Assembly (NCBI GenBank): GCA_028247015.1
Contig: JAOKFJ010000011.1
Span: forward strand, 1 to 33,800
Reading direction: 5' to 3'
Length of the DNA: 33,800 nucleotides
Origin: Methylophilaceae bacterium
Lineage (GTDB): Bacteria; Pseudomonadota; Gammaproteobacteria; Burkholderiales; Methylophilaceae
Each line of letters opens with the position of its first letter. Position 1 is the first letter of the stretch. The notes under the pieces are model-generated. The model made no database searches, was not told the origin of the DNA, and worked only from the letters and a program-made list of their open reading frames with translations. Of this stretch, positions 17,408 through 33,653 are shown one piece after another. A program made the position numbers and the translations under genes.

Positions 17408-17442
17408 TTTTATAGAACATTGTTAGATAATTATTATCAATA
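17408..17442 (+). promoter_or_regulatory. RpoE/ECF-like promoter upstream of the 197-aa methyltransferase
   Basis: GAACAT (17415-17420), 16 bases, then TCAATA (17437-17442). The preceding TTTTATA and most of the spacer match the copy at 13828 (27 of 32 bases identical by eye). The ATG at 17498 is 55 bases downstream. Confidence 0.5.
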
Positions 17443-17497
17443 AATTTTTTAATTAACTTCTATTTTCCCACCAAGTTATCTAAGGTAAACTGCCTTC

Positions 17498-18091
17498 ATG
17501 AAAAAACTTTTACATGTTGGGTGTGGCCCTGAAAATAAAAATACTCTAAAGGGTTTTAATACTCCCTTTTGGGAAGAGATTAGACTAGACATAGATAAAG
17601 ATGTTAAGCCAGATATTGTTGGCACTTTAACGGATATGGGTTTAGTTAATAGCGGCACTATTGATGCTCTCTACTCATCTCATAATATTGAGCATCTATT
17701 TCCACATGAAGTTCCTGTTGCATTAAGAGAATTCAATAGGGTACTAAATGACGATGGTTTTGTTGTCATTACTTGCCCAGATCTTGTAAGCGTATGCCAG
17801 GCAGTTGTAAGTGATAAGTTAATGGAGCCACTCTATTCATCACCTGCAGGCCCAATTTCTCCAATAGATATCTTGTATGGTCACAGAGGCTATATAGAGC
17901 AAGGGAAAGTCTATATGGCTCATAAAACTGGGTTTACTTACACGTCTTTACTTAAAGCCTTCCAGGAGGCTGGCTTTACCTCTTTCTTTGGTGGAAGTCT
18001 GCCAAAAACATTTGAATTATGGCTTATTGCATTTAAGCAAGGTAGAACAGAAGAGGATTTAAAAAAAGCTGCAGGAGAATTTTTGCCTTAA
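17498..18091 (+). CDS. Class I SAM-dependent methyltransferase-like protein
   Basis: This is a 197-residue methyltransferase-fold protein. Its short motif I is LHVGCGPENKNTL (5-17). The acidic motif II is IRLDIDKDVKPDI. The post-I region is IDALYSSHNIEHLFPHEV, and LREFNRVLNDDGFVVITCPDL resembles the Methyltransf_11 motif. Proteins of this shape, with a predicted-SAM-dependent-methyltransferase label, are common in marine proteobacteria, and the substrate is unknown. It carries the ECF-like promoter shared with msrB. It is followed by the SNF2 helicase after 47 bases, so that promoter might read into the helicase operon. Confidence 0.8.
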   Translation: MKKLLHVGCGPENKNTLKGFNTPFWEEIRLDIDKDVKPDIVGTLTDMGLVNSGTIDALYSSHNIEHLFPHEVPVALREFNRVLNDDGFVVITCPDLVSVCQAVVSDKLMEPLYSSPAGPISPIDILYGHRGYIEQGKVYMAHKTGFTYTSLLKAFQEAGFTSFFGGSLPKTFELWLIAFKQGRTEEDLKKAAGEFLP

Positions 18092-18138
18092 TAAAAGGTA
18101 GAAAGTATACTTAAAGACAATAATTTATGTAAATAACA

Positions 18139-21100
18139 GTGGTATTAACTTTTTATACAGGCATATTGTTCGTGCAAAAAAACACACAAATCAAATTAAA
18201 AAATAATCCATCAAGAACAGGTCATTTAACTGGTGAAATACGTTCAAGAAAAGGAAGTATATATTGGCAAATTAAATTTACTGATGGCTCAATTGATTAT
18301 GTTGGTGAAAACGAGATTGAAGAAGTAGTAGAGAGTGATTTTGATGATCATTATTCTCTTTTAAAAAAAGGTGAGTATGGAAGAGCATCAGATCTAAGAC
18401 AGCACTTAACATTTGTTCATTTATCTGGAAGATTAGCTAATTTAGTCTATAGCATGGGCGTTACTAATACAGATTTTTGGCCACATCAATATAAGCCTTT
18501 GCTGGCCCTTTTAGATTCACCGGCTAATGGCTTATTGATTGCAGACGAAGTTGGGCTCGGCAAGACAATTGAAGCTGGCTTAATTTGGACCGAATTAAGA
18601 GTGAGGTATGATATGAGAAGGCTTTTAGTCATTTGTCCGGCTATGCTAAAAGAAAAATGGAAGGATGAGCTAAGTAATCGATTTGGTATAAAAGCAAAAA
18701 TTGTTAAGGCCAAAGAGCTTTACGACGATTTACAGGATGAGGGAGCCACAAGAAATAATACAGATGAAGCTTGGATTGCTAGTTACCAATCATTAAGACC
18801 ACCTAAAGATTGGAAGTCAAAAAACGAAGATATTAACAAGTCAAAAAATACCAGAAAATTATGTGACTTTCTTGAATCTAATTCTGAAGATACAAAGTTA
18901 TTTGATGCTGTAATTTTTGATGAAGCACATTATATGCGAAATGATTCAAGTGCGGCACATAAGCTTGGAAATATAATAAGAGATGTAAGTGAGTTCATAC
19001 TTTTATTATCGGCAACACCTATAAATTTAAAAAGTTTAGATTTATTTGAGCTTTTAAAGCTTGCAGATCCTGAACACTTTAAAAATACTTATGATTTTGA
19101 AGAAATGCTAGCCTCAAACAAACCTTTGATAAAAGCACGAGATATTGTTTTAGACAGTCGGTCTGATAAAAAAGATATTCTTGATATATTAAAAGAATCA
19201 CAAAAAACACAATTACTAAAATTTTCTTCACAGCTAAAAGCCCTAATTAATGAGCTTTCTATGTATAAAGAATCTATATCAAAAGAATATAGAGCAGAAA
19301 TTGCTGAGACAATTGAAAGAATAAACCTACTTGGTCACGTTGTTACAAGAACAAGAAAAAGAGATATTCAGGCTAAACGACCAGTAAGAAGAGTTAATAG
19401 AGAGGCCATTACAATGTCTGAAATTGAAATGGAGCTATATTCAAGTGTCACAGATTCAATAAGAAGTTACGCACAAGAAAATGACATAGTTACGGGGTTT
19501 CTTTTAGCAACCTATCAAAGACAAATTTCAAGTTGCCCAGCTGCAACTTTTGGAAATTGGGAAAAAAGAAATTTTGAGGATACGGAAAATATAGATGATG
19601 CTGAGGATGAAATAGATAAAGCACCTCTAAGACATCATATATACAATCATCTTAATACAAGTATTTCATATAAGGGCTTATATGATAATGATTCAAAATT
19701 TAATAGATTAAAAGATTTATTATTGAAATTTAATGATGAAAATAAAGAAAAAAAAATAATTATTTTTACGTCATTTAGAGCAACGGCTAAATATTTAAAA
19801 GAACGATTAAGTAAATTAGATATTCAATCAATGCTTTTGTGGGGGAGTATGGACAAACCAAAGCAAGAATATATTAATCAATTTAAGGAAAGCAAAAGCC
19901 TTAGAGTGCTTATTTCTACTGAAGTCGCCTCAGAGGGGGTTGATCTTCAGTTCAGTAATTTTCTAATAAATTATGATTTACCATGGAATCCCATGAGAGT
20001 TGAGCAAAGAATTGGAAGGATTGATAGATTAGGCCAAGAATCAGATGAGTTATTTATTTGGAATTTATTTTATAAAGATTCTATTGACGAGAGAATTATT
20101 ATTCGCCTAATGGACAGGTTAAATATTTTTGAAGAAGCCTTAGGAGAATCGGAGGCAGTTATTGGCGAACAAATATCAAAACTGGAAAGTGATTTATTAA
20201 TTAAGCCTCTTACGCGAGAGGAAGAAGATTTAAGAATTGCACAAACAGCTCAAGCTATTGAAAATTTAAAACAAGTACAACTAAATCTAGAAAAAAACGC
20301 TTCAAAAATATTATCTCATGGAGGACTATTAATAGAAAAAATTAAGGCAGCAGAAGAATTCTCAAAAAGGATAACAGATGAAGACTTGATAGTTTACGTG
20401 AGTGATTTTTTAGTAGGCCATGCGCAAGGTTTTATATTTAAGAGTGATATTGATAATTCAAATATATTTGAAGTAAAACTGCCTTCAAAAATTGCAGCAG
20501 AATTATTTGATTTTATAAGGGTAAATCAATTATTTGGAATGACAACCTTAGCAAATGGAAGCTTAAGAAAATGTCATTTTAAAAATAAAGTTGGACATGA
20601 AAATAAACATGTTGAGATTATCAATCAATTTCATCCTTTAATTAGATATATAAGTGATAAATATATACGCTCAAAAAAGAAATTTTATCCATTGGTTGCA
20701 ATTGAACTAAAAAATACTGAGCTGAATATTAAAAAGGGTTTCTATGTGTTTTGTGTAAAAAGAAGTAGTTTTCAAGGGTTAAGATCGGAGGAGCATTTAG
20801 ATTCAATTGCTATTAGATTAGATAATAGAGAAATATTAACAAGTGAAAAATCTGATCAGCTTATTAATTCTTCAAGATTAAATGGAGGTAATTTTTTAGA
20901 TATTTCAAAAATTGTTAATTCAGATGATATTGGTAAATTAATAGATACATTGGAATTAAATTTAGATGAAAGTTTTGAAAAAATGCGCTTAAAAAAAGCT
21001 AATGAGAATAAAGATAGAATTGCTTTTCAAAAAAATTCATTAGAGCAACATAAGAATAGAAAATTACCAGGCTTAAAAGAGATGCATGAAAAATTGTTAG

Positions 21101-21252
21101 GAGAGAATAAACTCAATGGTGCAAGATTAACAAAAAGCAGAATTGATAAATTAATTGAAAAAACAGAAGTGCAACTTCAAAAAATCATGTTGAGTTCAGA
21201 TATTAAAGCTACTAAAAGTTTTGTTTGTTCAGGAGTTATTAACCTTAAATAG
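18139..21252 (+). CDS. SNF2/RapA(HepA)-like superfamily 2 helicase
   Basis: This is a 1037-residue SNF2-type ATPase. An N-terminal Tudor/SH3-like stretch (about 20-70, GEIRSRKGSIYWQIKFTDG) resembles the start of RapA/HepA. Motif I is ADEVGLGKTIEAGLI (about 134), motif II is DEAH (261-264), motif III is LLSATPI, and the RecA2 motifs are STEVASEGVDLQF and QRIGRIDRLGQ (about 624). The C-terminal 350 residues carry a helical, Lys/Glu-rich, coiled-coil-prone region and no nuclease motif that I can see. Such proteins translocate on DNA and remodel bound protein complexes, and many sit in phage-defence loci. The start is uncertain: GTG 18139, or GTG 18172 with an AGG about 10 bases ahead. The next gene begins 8 bases after the stop. 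Confidence 0.92.
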   Translation: MVLTFYTGILFVQKNTQIKLKNNPSRTGHLTGEIRSRKGSIYWQIKFTDGSIDYVGENEIEEVVESDFDDHYSLLKKGEYGRASDLRQHLTFVHLSGRLANLVYSMGVTNTDFWPHQYKPLLALLDSPANGLLIADEVGLGKTIEAGLIWTELRVRYDMRRLLVICPAMLKEKWKDELSNRFGIKAKIVKAKELYDDLQDEGATRNNTDEAWIASYQSLRPPKDWKSKNEDINKSKNTRKLCDFLESNSEDTKLFDAVIFDEAHYMRNDSSAAHKLGNIIRDVSEFILLLSATPINLKSLDLFELLKLADPEHFKNTYDFEEMLASNKPLIKARDIVLDSRSDKKDILDILKESQKTQLLKFSSQLKALINELSMYKESISKEYRAEIAETIERINLLGHVVTRTRKRDIQAKRPVRRVNREAITMSEIEMELYSSVTDSIRSYAQENDIVTGFLLATYQRQISSCPAATFGNWEKRNFEDTENIDDAEDEIDKAPLRHHIYNHLNTSISYKGLYDNDSKFNRLKDLLLKFNDENKEKKIIIFTSFRATAKYLKERLSKLDIQSMLLWGSMDKPKQEYINQFKESKSLRVLISTEVASEGVDLQFSNFLINYDLPWNPMRVEQRIGRIDRLGQESDELFIWNLFYKDSIDERIIIRLMDRLNIFEEALGESEAVIGEQISKLESDLLIKPLTREEEDLRIAQTAQAIENLKQVQLNLEKNASKILSHGGLLIEKIKAAEEFSKRITDEDLIVYVSDFLVGHAQGFIFKSDIDNSNIFEVKLPSKIAAELFDFIRVNQLFGMTTLANGSLRKCHFKNKVGHENKHVEIINQFHPLIRYISDKYIRSKKKFYPLVAIELKNTELNIKKGFYVFCVKRSSFQGLRSEEHLDSIAIRLDNREILTSEKSDQLINSSRLNGGNFLDISKIVNSDDIGKLIDTLELNLDESFEKMRLKKANENKDRIAFQKNSLEQHKNRKLPGLKEMHEKLLGENKLNGARLTKSRIDKLIEKTEVQLQKIMLSSDIKATKSFVCSGVINLK

Positions 21253-21260
21253 GATTATAT

Positions 21261-22898
21261 ATGCCCACATTACAAGAAGAACTTGAAAAAAAATTTGGTG
21301 CAAAAAGAACCAAAAAAATAACTGAAAAAAGAAAGCCCACATCACCTTTGGGGGTAGTTCATAAGAAGGTTAAAAAAAATGAAAATAGAAAGCCTATAAA
21401 GTGTCAATATTGTGATCTTGATATACGCGCAGATATGATAAGAAAACATTGTAGGGAGCTTCACCCTGAACAAAACGTTAAGAAAAATAATAAATATATT
21501 GAATGTGATATATGTCAATCACGGATAAGAAGTGATTTTTTAAGTGAGCATAAAAAAAAGAAACATCAAGAGCATATCTATCCCGATATCAAAAGTGAGG
21601 TAACTAAACCTCGGATATCCATCAAAAATTTTAATTTCTCTTTATCATCGGTTAAAGATTTTAAAGTTCCTGATGATTGGGCTCTAAAAGAAGAGGTTAC
21701 TCAAGAAAATAAAAACGATGTAATAGATATTTATATAGGACTTGATTTTGGTACATCCTATACTAAGGCTGTAATAAGGTATTCCCAGGATTCTTATATT
21801 GTTGATTGGTCTGGCATTTCAAATTTTCCTAACTCTAATACATTACCAAGCGAACTTTCAATAAAAAAAAATAACCCTAATAATTTTAATGTTGGACGTG
21901 CCCCTGATAGTGATATATTTAGTAATTTAAAGATTCCGCTTCTCGAGAAGAGAGCAACAAAAGAAGAAGAAGATAGAGTGGTAATTTACTTATCCTTAGT
22001 ATTAAGGTACATAAGACAATGGTGGCATAAACATGATATATATCCTGATGCTAATTTAAGGTGGAACCTTACCATTGGACTCCCTGCTAAAGATAATACT
22101 CATGAAAGCTTACATAAACAATATATATCCTTAACAAATAAAGCTTGGGCGATGAGTTTTAAGAAAAATAATACCTTGAAACTTGAGCTTAACTGCTTTA
22201 GTGAATTTGCAGCTCAGATGCAAACATATTTAAAAAATATTAGGCGTCAAAAAGACCTTCATCTACTTTGTGATGTTGGGGGAGGGACTGTTGATATTGT
22301 TTGCTTTAATGTTCATTTAAATGATAAAGATGAAGATATATTGCCGACGTTTACTTCTGAAGTAGAACCTCTGGGTACTCATTATTTATTTCAGGAGCGA
22401 TTAAAGGCTTTAGATACTAAAATACAATCAGGCAAATTACATGATGCAGCTCAAGTATTATCAGCGGAAGAGTTTGCCCGGAAATATAATGCTAATATTA
22501 AATCAATTCAAGACGCAGATGACCGATATGTAGAGGACTTATCAAACCTAATTATAAAAGTTCTGAGCCGAATGAAAAGTAATAGATATGGAAATTCACC
22601 ATCTTGGAAAAATCGCTTGAGGGTATTCTTATGCGGAGGTGCAGCAAAAACTAAAGTTGTTCGTAGTGCCATGGCTAAAGCCCAAGTGTCATTTAAATGT
22701 CTTGGGGGGATATTGTTCCCTTTACCAGATGACATTCAAACAGGTAGTATGGATGAGGATGATTTTCAGCGTATCTCTGTTGCATATGGATTAGCTTTCG
22801 ATCCATTCAGTCTTCCAAAGTGTATTGATGAAGACAAAGAATGGCACCCTCCAACACTTCCACCAAGAGAGGATTACGGTGGTGATTATGATAAATAG
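21261..22898 (+). CDS. Hsp70/actin-fold ATPase with two N-terminal C2H2-type zinc fingers
   Basis: This is a 545-residue protein of the Hsp70/actin ATPase superfamily with an unusual N-terminus. Two zinc fingers of identical spacing (C-x2-C-x11-H-x4-H) sit at Cys48/Cys51/His63/His68 and Cys82/Cys85/His97/His102. The ATPase core follows: phosphate-1 loop GLDFGTSYTKAV (160-171), phosphate-2 DVGGGTVDIVCF (about 338-349) and adenosine motif VFLCGGAAKTKVV (about 452-464). The chaperone substrate-binding domain is absent; only about 80 residues follow the adenosine motif. The fingers suggest nucleic-acid or protein tethering. The ribosome site AGGA overlaps the stop of the SNF2 gene and lies 6 bases before the ATG, so the two proteins are almost certainly made together. 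I do not recognise a named system with this pair. Confidence 0.9.
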   Translation: MPTLQEELEKKFGAKRTKKITEKRKPTSPLGVVHKKVKKNENRKPIKCQYCDLDIRADMIRKHCRELHPEQNVKKNNKYIECDICQSRIRSDFLSEHKKKKHQEHIYPDIKSEVTKPRISIKNFNFSLSSVKDFKVPDDWALKEEVTQENKNDVIDIYIGLDFGTSYTKAVIRYSQDSYIVDWSGISNFPNSNTLPSELSIKKNNPNNFNVGRAPDSDIFSNLKIPLLEKRATKEEEDRVVIYLSLVLRYIRQWWHKHDIYPDANLRWNLTIGLPAKDNTHESLHKQYISLTNKAWAMSFKKNNTLKLELNCFSEFAAQMQTYLKNIRRQKDLHLLCDVGGGTVDIVCFNVHLNDKDEDILPTFTSEVEPLGTHYLFQERLKALDTKIQSGKLHDAAQVLSAEEFARKYNANIKSIQDADDRYVEDLSNLIIKVLSRMKSNRYGNSPSWKNRLRVFLCGGAAKTKVVRSAMAKAQVSFKCLGGILFPLPDDIQTGSMDEDDFQRISVAYGLAFDPFSLPKCIDEDKEWHPPTLPPREDYGGDYDK

Positions 22899-26486: not shown

Positions 26487-26549
26487 ATGGTCAAAAATAA
26501 TATGAGTCAAAGAGAAATTTTTTTATTGAGAATTGAATTTTATGGATGA
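26487..26549 (+). other. Possible 20-codon leader ORF overlapping the egtD start
   Basis: An ATG at 26487 opens a 20-codon frame ending in TGA at 26547-26549, which runs over the egtD ATG (26542) in another frame. The egtD ATG has only a weak, distant ribosome site, so translation could be coupled to this leader. No conservation can be judged here. Confidence 0.2.
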
Positions 26550-27525
26550 AGAAAATACTAGGGATCTTGACTATTTTTTAGATATTCAACCTAAGAAAAA
26601 AATAGAATTTTATGAGGCTGTTTTGGAAGGGTTATCATTACCCCAGAAAACAATATCTCCTAAATTTTTTTATGATGAGCGGGGCTCCAAGATCTTTGAT
26701 AAAATTTGTGATACACCAGAATACTACTTAACTCGAACCGAAATAGCATTACTTAATGAGATTCAAGAAGAGCTTTATTCTCTTGTTGAGCCTGGTTCAG
26801 CAGTCGTGGAATATGGCTGTGGTTCGAGTATTAAGATCAAAGCCCTTTTATCGGCTTTGCCAGAACCATCACATTATATTGCAATAGACATTTCAAAGTC
26901 GCATCTGATTGCAACTGCGAAAGAAATAGCTTCGAATTATAGTAATATTTCTGTTGCAGCAATTTGCGCAGATTTTATGGAACCTATCGACTGGCCAGAA
27001 AGGGCCTCTTTTGAATCTTTAAAGCGGCTTGCTTTTTTCCCTGGCTCTACCATTGGAAATCTAAACCCTAGTGAAGCTAGTCAGCTTTTAAAATATGTCC
27101 GACATTTAGTCGGTGATGAGGGTACATTCTTAATTGGTGTAGATATGAAGAAAGATGCTGAGGTTTTTAATAGAGCTTATAATGATGCACAAGGTCATAC
27201 TGCTGACTTTAATTTGAATCTTCTTCATAGAATGAAAAGTGAACTAGATGCTGATATAAATATCTCTGAATTTTCTCATAAAGCTTTTTATAATGAAAAA
27301 CTTGGAAGAGTTGAAATGCATCTTATTAGTGATACTAAGCAAGTTATTAAAATTGATAGTTTAGAGTTTCTCTTTGAAAAAGGAGAAAGCATACATACTG
27401 AATGTTCTTATAAATATTCCATAATAGAGTTCTCTGAGTTAGCAAAAAAATCAGGATTTAGTGTGTTAAAAAATTGGACTGATAAGAGAAGTCTTTTCAG
27501 TATTTATCTGATGAAAGCTATTTAA
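26542..27525 (+). CDS. egtD: EgtD-like L-histidine N-alpha-methyltransferase
   Basis: This is a 327-residue EgtD/DUF2260-family SAM methyltransferase. Visible signatures are SPKFFYDERGSKIFDKICDTPEYYLTR-type N-terminal substrate lid (about 35-60), SAM motif VVEYGCGSSIKIKALL, IAIDISKSHL, FFPGSTIGNLNP, and the closing GVDMKKDAEV. In ergothioneine synthesis EgtD trimethylates histidine to hercynine. EgtB, the sulfoxide synthase normally adjacent, is not in the window. Instead a second methyltransferase lies 39 bases downstream and a divergent PhyH dioxygenase lies upstream. ATG 26542 is preferred over TTG 26533. EgtD homologues can methylate other aromatic amino acids, so histidine is likely but not proven. 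Confidence 0.92.
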   Translation: MDEENTRDLDYFLDIQPKKKIEFYEAVLEGLSLPQKTISPKFFYDERGSKIFDKICDTPEYYLTRTEIALLNEIQEELYSLVEPGSAVVEYGCGSSIKIKALLSALPEPSHYIAIDISKSHLIATAKEIASNYSNISVAAICADFMEPIDWPERASFESLKRLAFFPGSTIGNLNPSEASQLLKYVRHLVGDEGTFLIGVDMKKDAEVFNRAYNDAQGHTADFNLNLLHRMKSELDADINISEFSHKAFYNEKLGRVEMHLISDTKQVIKIDSLEFLFEKGESIHTECSYKYSIIEFSELAKKSGFSVLKNWTDKRSLFSIYLMKAI

Positions 27526-30703: not shown

Positions 30704-30876
30704 AAATTCAAGACTACATTTTGGACAGAATAAGTTCTCAACATGGAAGCAAGTTTTAGACTATTTAATCTGATAAGATATTTCATGGATTCAGATAAAC
30801 TACCAGAGAGCCATGTGAGTTTTGAGGACTATGCTGGCAGTTAGTTGAACGAATGTAAATGATCATAGGATGGAAA

Positions 30877-32427
30877 ATGGATTCTGAGCAAATTAAAAGT
30901 GTAGAAAAAGAATTATGGGGTGCCGCGGATATTTTAAGAGCTAACTCAAAATTAACAGCAGCTGAATATAAAGATCCAGTTCTGGGTTTGATTCTTCTTC
31001 GCTTTGCTCAAAATAGGTTTGAAGAAACTTTAAGAAAAATTGAAGCTAATATCCCGGTTAATCCTCGTACAGGAAAGAAAGAAATTACCAAAGATCATTT
31101 TTTAGGGGAGTCTTCTTTATATCTTCAAGATGAATCAAAGTATGAATACTTAGCTAACCTTCCCGAAGGAAAAGATATAAGTGAAGCAGTCAATCATGCA
31201 ATGCAATTGGTTGAAGATGACCATATTGATCTAGCGGGTATCTTACCCAAAAACTATCAGGACCTTAATAGTGATTTATTAAAAGAATTAATCAGAATAT
31301 TTAATACTGAAGCAATTAGATCAATTCCAGGTGATGTATTTGGTCGAATCTATGAATATTTCTTAATGCAATTTTCAATGTCAGGTGCTGGAGCTCAAGA
31401 GGGCGGAGAGTTCTTTACGCCACCTTCACTTGTTCAGCTAATTGTGAACTTCATTGAACCTTATCATGGGATAGTTCATGATCCAGCCTGTGGCTCAGGT
31501 GGTATGTTTGTCCAAACAGCCCACTTCATAGGAGATCATAATAAATCTATTAATGAATCAATTACAACTTATGGAACTGAGCTCAAAACAAACAACACAA
31601 GATTAGCGAAAATGAACTTAGCGATTCATGGCATGGAAGGAAAAATTATTGAGGATAATAGCTTCTATAGTGATCCACATAATTTAGTGGGTAAATGTGA
31701 TTTCGTGATGGCAAATCCTCCTTTTAATGTAGATAAAATCGATAAGAAAAAAGATTTTGTTGTTAATGATGCAAGACTTCCTTTTGGTCTTCCTAAAAAT
31801 GACAATGGTAATTATTTATGGATTCAATATTTCCATTCTTACCTAAATGAAAAAGGTCGAGCTGGGTTTGTTATGGCTTCATCTGCAACGGATGCAGGCA
31901 ATACTGAAAAACTCATCCGTCAAAAACTTATAGAAACAGGGGACGTTGAAGCGATTGTAAGTGTTAGAAATAATTTCTTCTATACTCGAAGTTTGCCTTG
32001 TCATGTCTGGTTTTTTAATAAAAACAAAAAAGATAAAGACACAATCTTGATGATTGATGCGAGGAATACTTTTAGGAAAGTTAATTCCAAAATTAACGAC
32101 TTTACCCCAGATCAATTAGAGGGATTAACAACAATTATTAAGTCTTACCGAGGTGAAACAGTCGACTTTAAGGCAAATGAATGGCTAACTAAAAGCTTTG
32201 AATCAGGCAGTTATGAGGATGTAGAGGGGCTATGTAAGGTGGCTTCAATGGATGAGATTATCGAGAATGATTACAGTCTTACTCCGGGTAGATATGTTGG
32301 TTTTAGCATTCAGATTGATGAAGACTTTGACTATAAAGGCAGAATGGCAGAGATACATGATGAGTTAGCTAAGCTGAATGCTGAGAGCGATGATTTAATG
32401 AAGCCTATTCAAGATTTGAAGTTATGA
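30877..32427 (+). CDS. hsdM: Type I restriction-modification DNA methyltransferase subunit HsdM
   Basis: This is a 516-residue N6-adenine methyltransferase subunit. The N-terminal helical domain (ELWGAADILRANSKLTAAEYKDPVLGLILLRF) is typical HsdM_N. SAM motif I is DPACGSGGMF (202-211) and the catalytic motif is NPPF (280-283). With HsdS it methylates one adenine on each strand of a bipartite target, and with HsdR it forms the restriction complex. ATG 30877 is chosen over ATG 30859 because AGGA lies 6 bases upstream. The end overlaps hsdS as ATGA. The protein has the normal length, with no sign of decay. Confidence 0.96.
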   Translation: MDSEQIKSVEKELWGAADILRANSKLTAAEYKDPVLGLILLRFAQNRFEETLRKIEANIPVNPRTGKKEITKDHFLGESSLYLQDESKYEYLANLPEGKDISEAVNHAMQLVEDDHIDLAGILPKNYQDLNSDLLKELIRIFNTEAIRSIPGDVFGRIYEYFLMQFSMSGAGAQEGGEFFTPPSLVQLIVNFIEPYHGIVHDPACGSGGMFVQTAHFIGDHNKSINESITTYGTELKTNNTRLAKMNLAIHGMEGKIIEDNSFYSDPHNLVGKCDFVMANPPFNVDKIDKKKDFVVNDARLPFGLPKNDNGNYLWIQYFHSYLNEKGRAGFVMASSATDAGNTEKLIRQKLIETGDVEAIVSVRNNFFYTRSLPCHVWFFNKNKKDKDTILMIDARNTFRKVNSKINDFTPDQLEGLTTIIKSYRGETVDFKANEWLTKSFESGSYEDVEGLCKVASMDEIIENDYSLTPGRYVGFSIQIDEDFDYKGRMAEIHDELAKLNAESDDLMKPIQDLKL

Positions 32428-33653
32428 GTGAGTGGCAAAAGATTACATTTGGAGAAGCAGTCAACTTTCCTCCAAAATGTTCATTAGTAAAGAAAGAAGT
32501 TTATCCTTATATTGAGCTAGCAAATATAAATATTGGCTTTAAGTATGTTTATAGTTTTGGAGAGCAAAAATATAATGGTAGTGGCTCAAAGTTTGAAAAT
32601 GGAGATACCTTATTTGCAAGAATTACGCCAAGTTTAGAAAACGGAAAGATTGCTCAGGTAAAAAATCTTAAAAAAACAGGTTTTGGTTCTGGTGAATTTT
32701 TTATTTTTCGTGGAAAAAAGGGTATAAGTGATAGTGATTTTATTTATTATTTATCTCAGACGGAATCTTTTAAGAATAATGCAATAAATAGTATGGTTGG
32801 TGCATCAGGTCGACAAAGAGCTGACAATAAGTTTGTAGCAAAAACTAAAATCAACCTCCCACCACTCCCAACCCAACAAAAGATAGCAAAAATTCTCTCT
32901 AATTATGATGACTTAATTGAGAATAACCTAAAGCGTATTAAGTTATTAGAAGAGTCTGCAAGACTCACTTATGAAGAGTGGTTTTTACGCTTTAGAATCG
33001 ATGGTAAGAAGCTAGATATAGATCCAGAGTCTGGGTTACCTTTTGGGTGGGAAAAGAAGTCAATAACACAGTGTGATGCATTTAAGCAAGACAACCGGAA
33101 ACTAAAAGAATTTGATGGTGAAAAACTATACTATGCAACAGCTGATGTAGATGGTACAGAAATTACAGTAGATGGTGAAATAATAAAATGGCTTAACAAA
33201 CCATCAAGAGCACAAATAAAGCCAAATAATAATACTGTCTGGTTTGCCAGGATGAGTAATACATATAAGGTTTTATGTTTTAATAATAAGAATACCAATC
33301 TTCAAGATAGCTCAGTTTTATCATCTGGATTTGCTGGATTCAATGCAAAAAATGATTCATGTCTACCGTTTTTATATTTCACTATAAATAGTAAATTTTT
33401 TCATGATTTAAAAGATTTATACGCCACAGGTGCCACTCAAGTTTCATTAAATAATGATTCAATGAGTTATATAAAAATTATCGAACCCAGATCGGAATTA
33501 ATTGAAAAATTTGGAAATAAAACGTTACCTCTGATTGAGGAGATAAGTAATTTAAGGAGTAAAAACCAACTCCTAAAGGAAGCCCGAGATATCCTTTTAC
33601 CTCGTTTAATGACAGGTATGATTGATACAGATAAATTGAAGGTGGCGGCATGA
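32424..33653 (+). CDS. hsdS: Type I restriction-modification specificity subunit HsdS
   Basis: This is a 409-residue HsdS with two target-recognition domains (about 1-150 and 200-350). They are separated by the conserved spacer helix LPPLPTQQKIAKILSNYDDLIENN (about 146-169), and a second one lies at the C-terminus (ISNLRSKNQLLKEARDILLPRLMTG). The two recognition domains are unlike each other, so the target should be asymmetric bipartite; the actual bases cannot be read from sequence. The start overlaps hsdM and the stop overlaps hsdR, each by 4 bases, giving an intact M-S-R order. Confidence 0.95.
   Translation: MSEWQKITFGEAVNFPPKCSLVKKEVYPYIELANINIGFKYVYSFGEQKYNGSGSKFENGDTLFARITPSLENGKIAQVKNLKKTGFGSGEFFIFRGKKGISDSDFIYYLSQTESFKNNAINSMVGASGRQRADNKFVAKTKINLPPLPTQQKIAKILSNYDDLIENNLKRIKLLEESARLTYEEWFLRFRIDGKKLDIDPESGLPFGWEKKSITQCDAFKQDNRKLKEFDGEKLYYATADVDGTEITVDGEIIKWLNKPSRAQIKPNNNTVWFARMSNTYKVLCFNNKNTNLQDSSVLSSGFAGFNAKNDSCLPFLYFTINSKFFHDLKDLYATGATQVSLNNDSMSYIKIIEPRSELIEKFGNKTLPLIEEISNLRSKNQLLKEARDILLPRLMTGMIDTDKLKVAA

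Follow-up and report, generated by a model that had tools for sequence, protein, structure and literature searches.

Several described systems come close to the locus analysed here. PADLOC names place RapA-like SNF2 ATPases in DISARM, BREX and Dpd; RapA-like helicases also occur in ARMADA according to the YprA/ARMADA preprint (PMC12458937), which presents DISARM as an anti-phage system, and PMC3710099 describes HEPN domains fused to SWI2/SNF2. For the CoCoNuT/McrBC systems, PMC11090510 describes fusions of Hsp70-like domains to McrB or McrC. Our subject is a pair of adjacent genes, encoding a superfamily 2 (SF2) SNF2 ATPase of the RapA/DrmD type and an Hsp70-fold ATPase, on contig JAOKFJ010000011.1 of a Methylophilaceae bacterium (GCA_028247015.1); this one entire contig of 33,800 bases, hereafter the window, belongs to an assembly of 0.88 Mb in 28 contigs that is 62% complete. 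To our knowledge, how RapA-like SNF2 ATPases are controlled in defence systems is mostly open. Eukaryotic SWI/SNF and INO80 remodelers contain actin-fold subunits.

The locus resembles each of these without coinciding with any. With CoCoNuT it shares Hsp70-like domains in a defence setting, but the fusion to McrB or McrC seen there has no counterpart here, as tblastn with a single McrB and a single McrC as queries gave no match in the window at E 0.001 (distant forms could escape such a search). With DISARM it shares a related RapA-like SNF2 protein, DrmD, but the partner in the window is Hsp70-like and the DISARM genes drmA, drmB, drmC and drmMI are missing from the window. As in SWI/SNF and INO80, an SNF2 motor is joined by a partner of the actin/Hsp70 superfamily, but that partner is nearest Hsp70, not actin, by structure search. 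Searches of the open-licence literature found no description of a two-gene SNF2 plus Hsp70-like system, in line with the original prediction, made from the sequence alone, which recognised no named system of this composition; we make no wider claim. Across the genomes searched, a RapA-type SNF2 protein with intact motifs is linked almost invariably to a partner that has the nucleotide-binding domain of an Hsp70 but lacks a peptide-binding one. Trees of the two proteins match, and the pair occurs in mobile and defence settings. It looks like a variant of the RapA-like SNF2 defence systems that is new in its make-up.

The two proteins

The SNF2 gene (18139 to 21252, forward strand) was read as 1037 residues from a GTG start, and its sequence assigns it firmly to the SNF2 proteins (Pfam SNF2-rel_dom, 1.7e-22; Helicase_C, 9.8e-22). 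Translation may instead begin at an in-frame GTG at 18172, which has an AGG upstream and lies about where the relatives start. A beta-rich N-terminus precedes the core (~100-690), and the C-terminal half of the protein is RapA-like and includes a long helical hairpin at 928-1018. The motor looks intact, because the residues of motif I (Walker A), motif II (DExH) and motif VI are invariant in 50 SNF2 sequences. A structural model (predicted local distance difference test, pLDDT, 80.7) matched eukaryotic SNF2 cores, namely SMARCAD1 (Z 23.3), SRCAP and INO80, as well as SWR1 chains. The best sequence matches among solved structures were to RapA (HepA, the RNA-polymerase recycling SNF2 protein), and the fold match to RapA 8t0l_F is near full length (784 residues, model residues 68-1037, Z 20.5, root-mean-square deviation 8.2), leaving residues 1-67 uncovered. 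The SNF2 protein of the pair nevertheless differs from RapA in falling far under the cut-off of the RapA equivalog model (156.9 bits against 576), in being patchy and mobile, and in having an Hsp70-like gene adjoining.

The second gene (21261 to 22898, forward strand, ATG start) starts after a gap of 8 bases, and a ribosome-site-like AGGA stretch (21251-21254) overlaps the TAG stop of the SNF2 gene (21250-21252), so that the gene coordinates, spacing and overlap given in the original prediction all stand. Neither Pfam nor NCBIfam has a family that matches its 545-residue product at E 0.001, and the candidate PADLOC profile PDC-M61B matches it weakly (E 3.8e-5); no description of the candidate PDC-M61 was found in the open-licence literature searched. 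An AlphaFold2 model built from a 53-sequence alignment (mean pLDDT 77.5) has nearly all ten-residue blocks at 77 or above from residue 151 to ~520 and is low in the N-terminal quarter. The 50 Foldseek matches listed for this model were all Hsp70-type, DnaK first, and VIA-align superposed model residues 156-522 on DnaK nucleotide-binding domains (Z 25.7, 312 residues, root-mean-square deviation 3.2), placing the domain at residues ~155-522. The 23 residues left after the fold match are too few to hold a substrate-binding domain. Both family assignments in the original prediction, and the missing substrate-binding domain, are thus borne out by the Pfam and structural matches. Among the positions invariant in 53 Hsp70-like sequences are D162, G164, T165, K169, K224, E315, D338 and G340; from their motif order, we take the invariant positions to be the probable phosphate-1 motif, catalytic lysine, glutamate and phosphate-2 motif of Hsp70. 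While the likeness to Hsp70/DnaK lies in the nucleotide-binding fold, the protein differs from DnaK in lacking the substrate-binding domain and in having an SNF2 gene adjoining wherever this could be checked, and the Pfam Hsp70 family is absent from the 22 families matched by the 53 members at E 0.01. An actin/ParM-like filament protein was considered and rejected, as weak Pfam matches to ALP_N and Alp7A (E 0.1-0.2) yielded to DnaK in the structure search.

The variable part of the protein is its extensions. The original prediction had labelled it a zinc-finger protein, and two tandem C-x2-C-x11-H-x4-H motifs are present in the low-confidence N-terminal extension (residues 48-102; 21402 to 21566, forward strand); a motif search found them in one of the 53 proteins, that of the window, so the fingers are local to it and do not define the system, and we rejected them as a defining feature. 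DnaJ-like CxxCxGxG motifs stand at the C-terminus of four of the 53 proteins. Ten cyanobacterial members, in which the gene order is reversed, have a long extension and, close to the start, a hydrophobic stretch, whose Kyte-Doolittle peak is 1.34-1.61 against at most 1.05 in the other Hsp70-like members, a hint from sequence that this stretch may be a membrane anchor.

Conservation and mobility of the pair

When the Hsp70-like alignment was searched against GTDB genome contigs, 57 loci were recovered, 53 of which have an SNF2 neighbour by our own SNF2 profile, 52 with no intervening open reading frame (ORF) among our gene calls and one (L052) with a 102-residue ORF in between. In two of the other four (L037 and L067) the Hsp70-like gene lies at a contig end; the remaining two (L069 and L070), which score ~20 bits and show no adjoining SNF2 gene with our profile, were rejected as family members; they are Hsp70s of another kind and read like YegD. 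The adjacency therefore holds in 53 of 53 loci where it could be checked, which puts the pairing beyond chance. By the names on their records, the loci span eight phyla (Pseudomonadota, Acidobacteria, Desulfobacterota-type bacteria, Acetothermia, Verrucomicrobia, Cyanobacteria, an actinobacterial metagenome-assembled genome (MAG), and Spirochaetes), although, as many come from MAGs, single phylum assignments may be wrong; the adjacency noted in the original prediction is clearly not restricted to this lineage. Over 59 rows the SNF2 gene comes first in 43 and the Hsp70-like gene in 13, with three unordered; all 56 ordered pairs have both genes on the same strand, and many touch or overlap. In one locus (L034, 6496-11327, Candidatus Accumulibacter phosphatis) each gene of the pair is split into two ORFs, which may reflect either a decayed copy or assembly errors.

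Searching from the SNF2 side gave the same partner for most loci: 17 of 23 lie beside an Hsp70-like gene and six of 23 beside a sacsin/Hsp90-like gene. By set, there were eight matches in 398 Pseudomonadota genomes (five with an Hsp70-like neighbour, our own genome included), eight plasmid records (six with an Hsp70-like neighbour) and seven matches in 386 cyanobacterial genomes (six with an Hsp70-like neighbour); one cyanobacterial plasmid is counted in two of these sets, and six of the loci are shared with the 57. Trees of the two proteins, drawn from 53 pairs once near duplicates had been removed along with most copies in which an ORF was broken or truncated, correlate closely (r 0.953; best of 2000 permutations, 0.173) and have 38 of 50 bipartitions in common. 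The SNF2 proteins that are linked to an Hsp70-like gene split from 11 other SNF2 proteins with a support of 0.999.

Presence is very patchy. The Hsp70-like protein has a match in four of the 398 Pseudomonadota genomes, our own counted, and the pair was found from its SNF2 gene in five of the 398, again counting our own genome, and in six of the 386 cyanobacterial genomes. In a sample of 187 genomes of the family the Hsp70-like protein had no other match apart from a weak one (G071, E 1.6e-4), rejected since none of the ORFs in the wider stretch around it (L014) matches the family profile. A search of 31 genomes of the genus, our own included, showed the flanks of the pair to be kept, with no coverage of ~17420-22886 in the 30 other genomes among the matches listed. 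The pair thus lies in an insertion of ~5.47 kb (17418 to 22890, no strand assigned) at the junction of a PTR2 transporter gene and an SDR gene; two sister genomes have the empty site, with 85 bp (L091) and 171 bp (L092) between PTR2 and SDR against ~5.5 kb in the window, while in two further sister genomes the interval is filled by different sequence, of 1.9 and 3.0 kb. None of the insert's three genes was recognised by Pfam as an integrase, and a repeat search found no matching repeats at the two ends of the insert. The third gene of the insert, upstream of the pair and on the same strand (17498 to 18091), encodes a small class I S-adenosylmethionine-dependent methyltransferase of 197 residues; it was rejected as a partner, having a single homologue in the locus set (L015), 7.7 kb away from the pair and non-adjacent.

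Six plasmid records carry the pair, of which three were typed as conjugative, one as mobilizable and two as neither, one of these last being a 4.6-Mb Shinella replicon. On two Sphingobium plasmids the pair lies close to ParAB and relaxase genes. On the same two plasmids a gene for a 533-residue protein, then one for an 822-residue protein, lie 3' of the pair (L085, 16972-21019; L086, 16936-20983); as scanned on L085, the former has no Pfam match and the latter a PLD-like domain. Phage genome records gave no match to the pair, and viral contigs gave no relative when searched with the Hsp70-like protein or its alignment. With the SNF2 protein as query, 80 of 358 loci in viral contigs were kept and examined: in one viral-collection contig (L106, 7848-12241) a divergent SNF2 gene (593 bits) overlaps a 411-residue Hsp70-like ORF (78 bits), four contigs (L107, L108, L110 and, on the opposite strand, L109) have sacsin-type neighbour matches and another (L134) a weaker one (69 bits), and the remaining SNF2 loci among the 80 have neither kind of neighbour by the profiles used.

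Defence settings and related systems

The window SNF2 protein is named DrmD by PADLOC (PDLC02623, 983 bits). A second Hsp70-linked SNF2 protein (L013) scores 979 bits with that profile, against 140 bits for the DrmD of a DISARM system from an Acidobacteria MAG (L021), which instead reaches 1026 bits on PDLC02621; with ~980 bits on two Hsp70-linked members against 140 on a DISARM DrmD, PDLC02623 probably mislabels this clade. The NCBIfam DrmD model (NF038317) gave the window protein 453.4 bits, missing its cut-off of 610. Family libraries were scanned with 13 of the 32 window ORFs and the entire window was searched by tblastn with eleven named proteins; DrmA, DrmB, DrmC and DrmMI of L021 and of an Aromatoleum locus (L029) found nothing in the window at E 0.001, and only DrmD matched, at the SNF2 gene. 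The DISARM core comprises drmA, drmB (DUF1998/MZB) and drmC alongside the SNF2 gene, and PF09369 is likewise absent from our own genome, 62% complete. A DISARM remnant was therefore rejected, as the window holds no core gene, the NCBIfam cut-off is missed and L021 holds the pair as well as a real DrmD; the close match to a named system is one of name only.

Individual loci link the pair well with defence. In the Aromatoleum locus the gene order is DrmMI, an unknown gene, a type II restriction endonuclease-like gene, SNF2, Hsp70-like, DrmA, DrmB and DrmC (the DrmA call rests on homology to the L021 DrmA, 570 bits, and on our neighbour census), and in L021 the pair lies, on the opposite strand, amid the genes of a DISARM system with its own DrmD and DrmMI and a gene for a UG19 reverse transcriptase. 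In both loci (L029, 1-18085; L021, 878-20327) these extra defence genes, the pair included, sit inside the DISARM operons in the stretch that separates the methylase part from drmA. On pAA03 the pair is surrounded by genes for HEPN, a TM0106-type nuclease, a restriction endonuclease, HamA of Hachiman and AbiEii-type proteins; elsewhere CRISPR type I-D genes lie 7 kb away (L009), McrBC stands beside the pair with a superfamily 1 (SF1) helicase that has an RNase_H_2 domain (L011 = L022), and MkoC-, ZacB- and ZacC/PDC-M27C-like genes (L012 = L019) or the candidate PDC-S68 (L013 = L043) lie near it.

Counts over all loci are mixed. Our census took in 86 nearest proteins of at least 150 residues at 52 loci (L044, a near duplicate of L043, was excluded), and among them found SF1 helicase domains (AAA_19) in ten, NERD in three, DDE_Tnp_1 in three and Fic in two. 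Enrichment was assessed in 37 genomes, from 38 of the 57 loci and leaving out L040. Five of the 37 have a NERD gene no more than 10 kb from the pair, against 0.23 expected (Poisson P 4e-6), and the number is four (P 1e-4) when the close relatives G612 and G613, which share the same neighbour, are counted once. The expectations suppose that genes are placed at random, and use genome sizes that were rounded. As a control, ribosomal protein S9 genes were near the pair in none of the 36 genomes with a match.

The 23 SNF2-first loci also led to a related group, in which six SNF2 genes (L081, L082, L083, L087, L088 and L105) have a sacsin/Hsp90-like gene beside them. Four of these were called by Pfam SACS, and L105 and the split ORFs of L083 by a profile built from those four. 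The SNF2 gene is followed by a sacsin/Hsp90-like ATPase of ~1034-1113 residues in L081 (7038-13702), L082 (2-6837), L087 (9788-16272), L088 (9797-16117) and L105 (7369-13864). The likeness is of a related SNF2 protein beside a chaperone-derived ATPase, with the difference that the latter is of Hsp90/sacsin rather than Hsp70 type. This partner resembles PADLOC TmtA, which we take to belong to the Tiamat system. The L081 SNF2 protein has a Swt1-like HEPN domain fused at its N-terminus, which suggests an RNase output there; no counterpart was recognised in the window protein. As this group exists, the joining of a motor to a chaperone-type ATPase is more than a one-off, and suggests a general design of a RapA-like motor with a chaperone-derived ATPase switch.

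Two other parts of the window deserve mention. At the contig end (33800) lie hsdM (30859-32427) and hsdS (32424-33653) of a type I restriction-modification (R-M) system, without a match in the 30 other genus genomes among the matches listed. The original prediction had pointed to a type I R-M operon downstream; its hsdM and hsdS are there, and hsdR is outside the view that the contig affords. By itself this proximity is weak evidence for defence, because among the matches listed none of the 37 other genomes has a strong N6_Mtase match (E < 1e-20) within 20 kb of the pair. At 26533-27525 is an EgtD-like histidine N-alpha-methyltransferase gene (TIGR03438, 364 bits, above the cut-off), whose DNA has matches in several genus genomes.

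Interpretation and alternatives

We infer from these settings that the pair acts in defence, and give a probability of roughly 0.6 to its being a horizontally mobile two-gene anti-invader module, most likely anti-phage, with the Hsp70-fold ATPase as the gate to the SNF2 motor. The SNF2 protein would be the DNA translocase, stripping proteins from DNA or remodelling their complexes with it. Its Hsp70-fold partner would bind it, and the partner's ATP/ADP cycle would act as the switch, licensing the motor once a variable extension meets an invader-related signal; candidate extensions are the zinc fingers in the window protein, the hydrophobic stretch and long extension in cyanobacteria and CxxCxGxG in a few others. 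Once licensed, the motor might disrupt phage or plasmid transcription or replication complexes, or expose DNA to nucleases encoded elsewhere.

Several results weigh against this. The family-library scans recognised no nuclease or other effector domain in either protein, and the predicted RapA-like fold would also be compatible with a role in transcription. The neighbours are very mixed: most families in the census occur once, some neighbours are plainly housekeeping, and no third gene recurs in more than four loci, so that we rejected an obligate third gene. The original prediction had proposed looking for enrichment near defence genes, and what is clear for NERD is weak for N6_Mtase, found within 10 kb of the pair in at least four of the 37 genomes against 0.92 expected (P 0.015), all of them weak matches from a set taken down to E 5.6e-5 in which four is a lower bound, with P 0.09 within 20 kb, likewise from lower-bound counts. 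PLD domains show no clear enrichment, with at least three within 20 kb where 1.4 would be expected within 10 kb (289 matches). Gating by the Hsp70-fold protein and sensing by its extensions are pure conjecture on our part. The observation made in the original prediction is confirmed, while its interpretation, a joint ATP-driven complex acting in defence or in transcription/replication recycling, is partly supported.

Competition between elements could also explain the data. Stripping replication or partition complexes from incoming or competing plasmids would suit a pair carried on conjugative and mobilizable plasmids, twice near ParAB and relaxase genes, for which phage records gave nothing and viral contigs very little. 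We think this anti-plasmid role unlikely, as the pair is also chromosomal, lies inside two operons of DISARM (an anti-phage system according to PMC12458937) and occurs in divergent form in a viral-collection contig (L106). The Hsp70-fold protein might alternatively be a dedicated assembly factor for SNF2 only, the latter working with the nucleases of neighbouring systems and the pair being an accessory of, for example, DISARM; the two DISARM operons that hold the pair, and the SF1-helicase (10 of 86) and NERD (3 of 86) domains among the nearest neighbours, would fit this. It is made improbable by the DISARM of L021, which has its own DrmD and so does not need the SNF2 protein of the pair, by the want of a common third gene, and by the lack of DrmA, DrmB, DrmC or DrmMI matches in the window and of PF09369 in our incomplete genome.

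A housekeeping role, with a RapA paralogue and its own Hsp70-like helper recycling transcription or replication complexes, draws on the near full-length match to RapA 8t0l, and we consider it very unlikely given the patchy distribution, an insert with empty sites in sister genomes, the plasmid and DISARM contexts and the RapA equivalog score. Returning to a mobile anti-invader module, a wider proposal is tentative and, in our judgement, rather doubtful: the pair may represent a bacterial class of two-subunit SNF2 remodelers, in which a chaperone-derived ATPase, Hsp70-type or sacsin/Hsp90-type by clade, governs the motor. Such a class would be a prokaryotic counterpart of the eukaryotic SNF2 motors with actin-fold subunits, serving as an antiviral sensor-motor that itself lacks a nuclease; the core of the window SNF2 protein does match SRCAP, INO80 and SWR1.

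For annotation, the PADLOC DrmD label hides what looks like a separate system, and recognising the latter would put the label right. Together with the related version that has an Hsp90/sacsin-fold partner, this minimal pair makes a compact model for studying the gating of a DNA motor by chaperone-type ATPases, and if the motor of the pair acts without a nuclease, this would be defence by remodelling, not by cutting.

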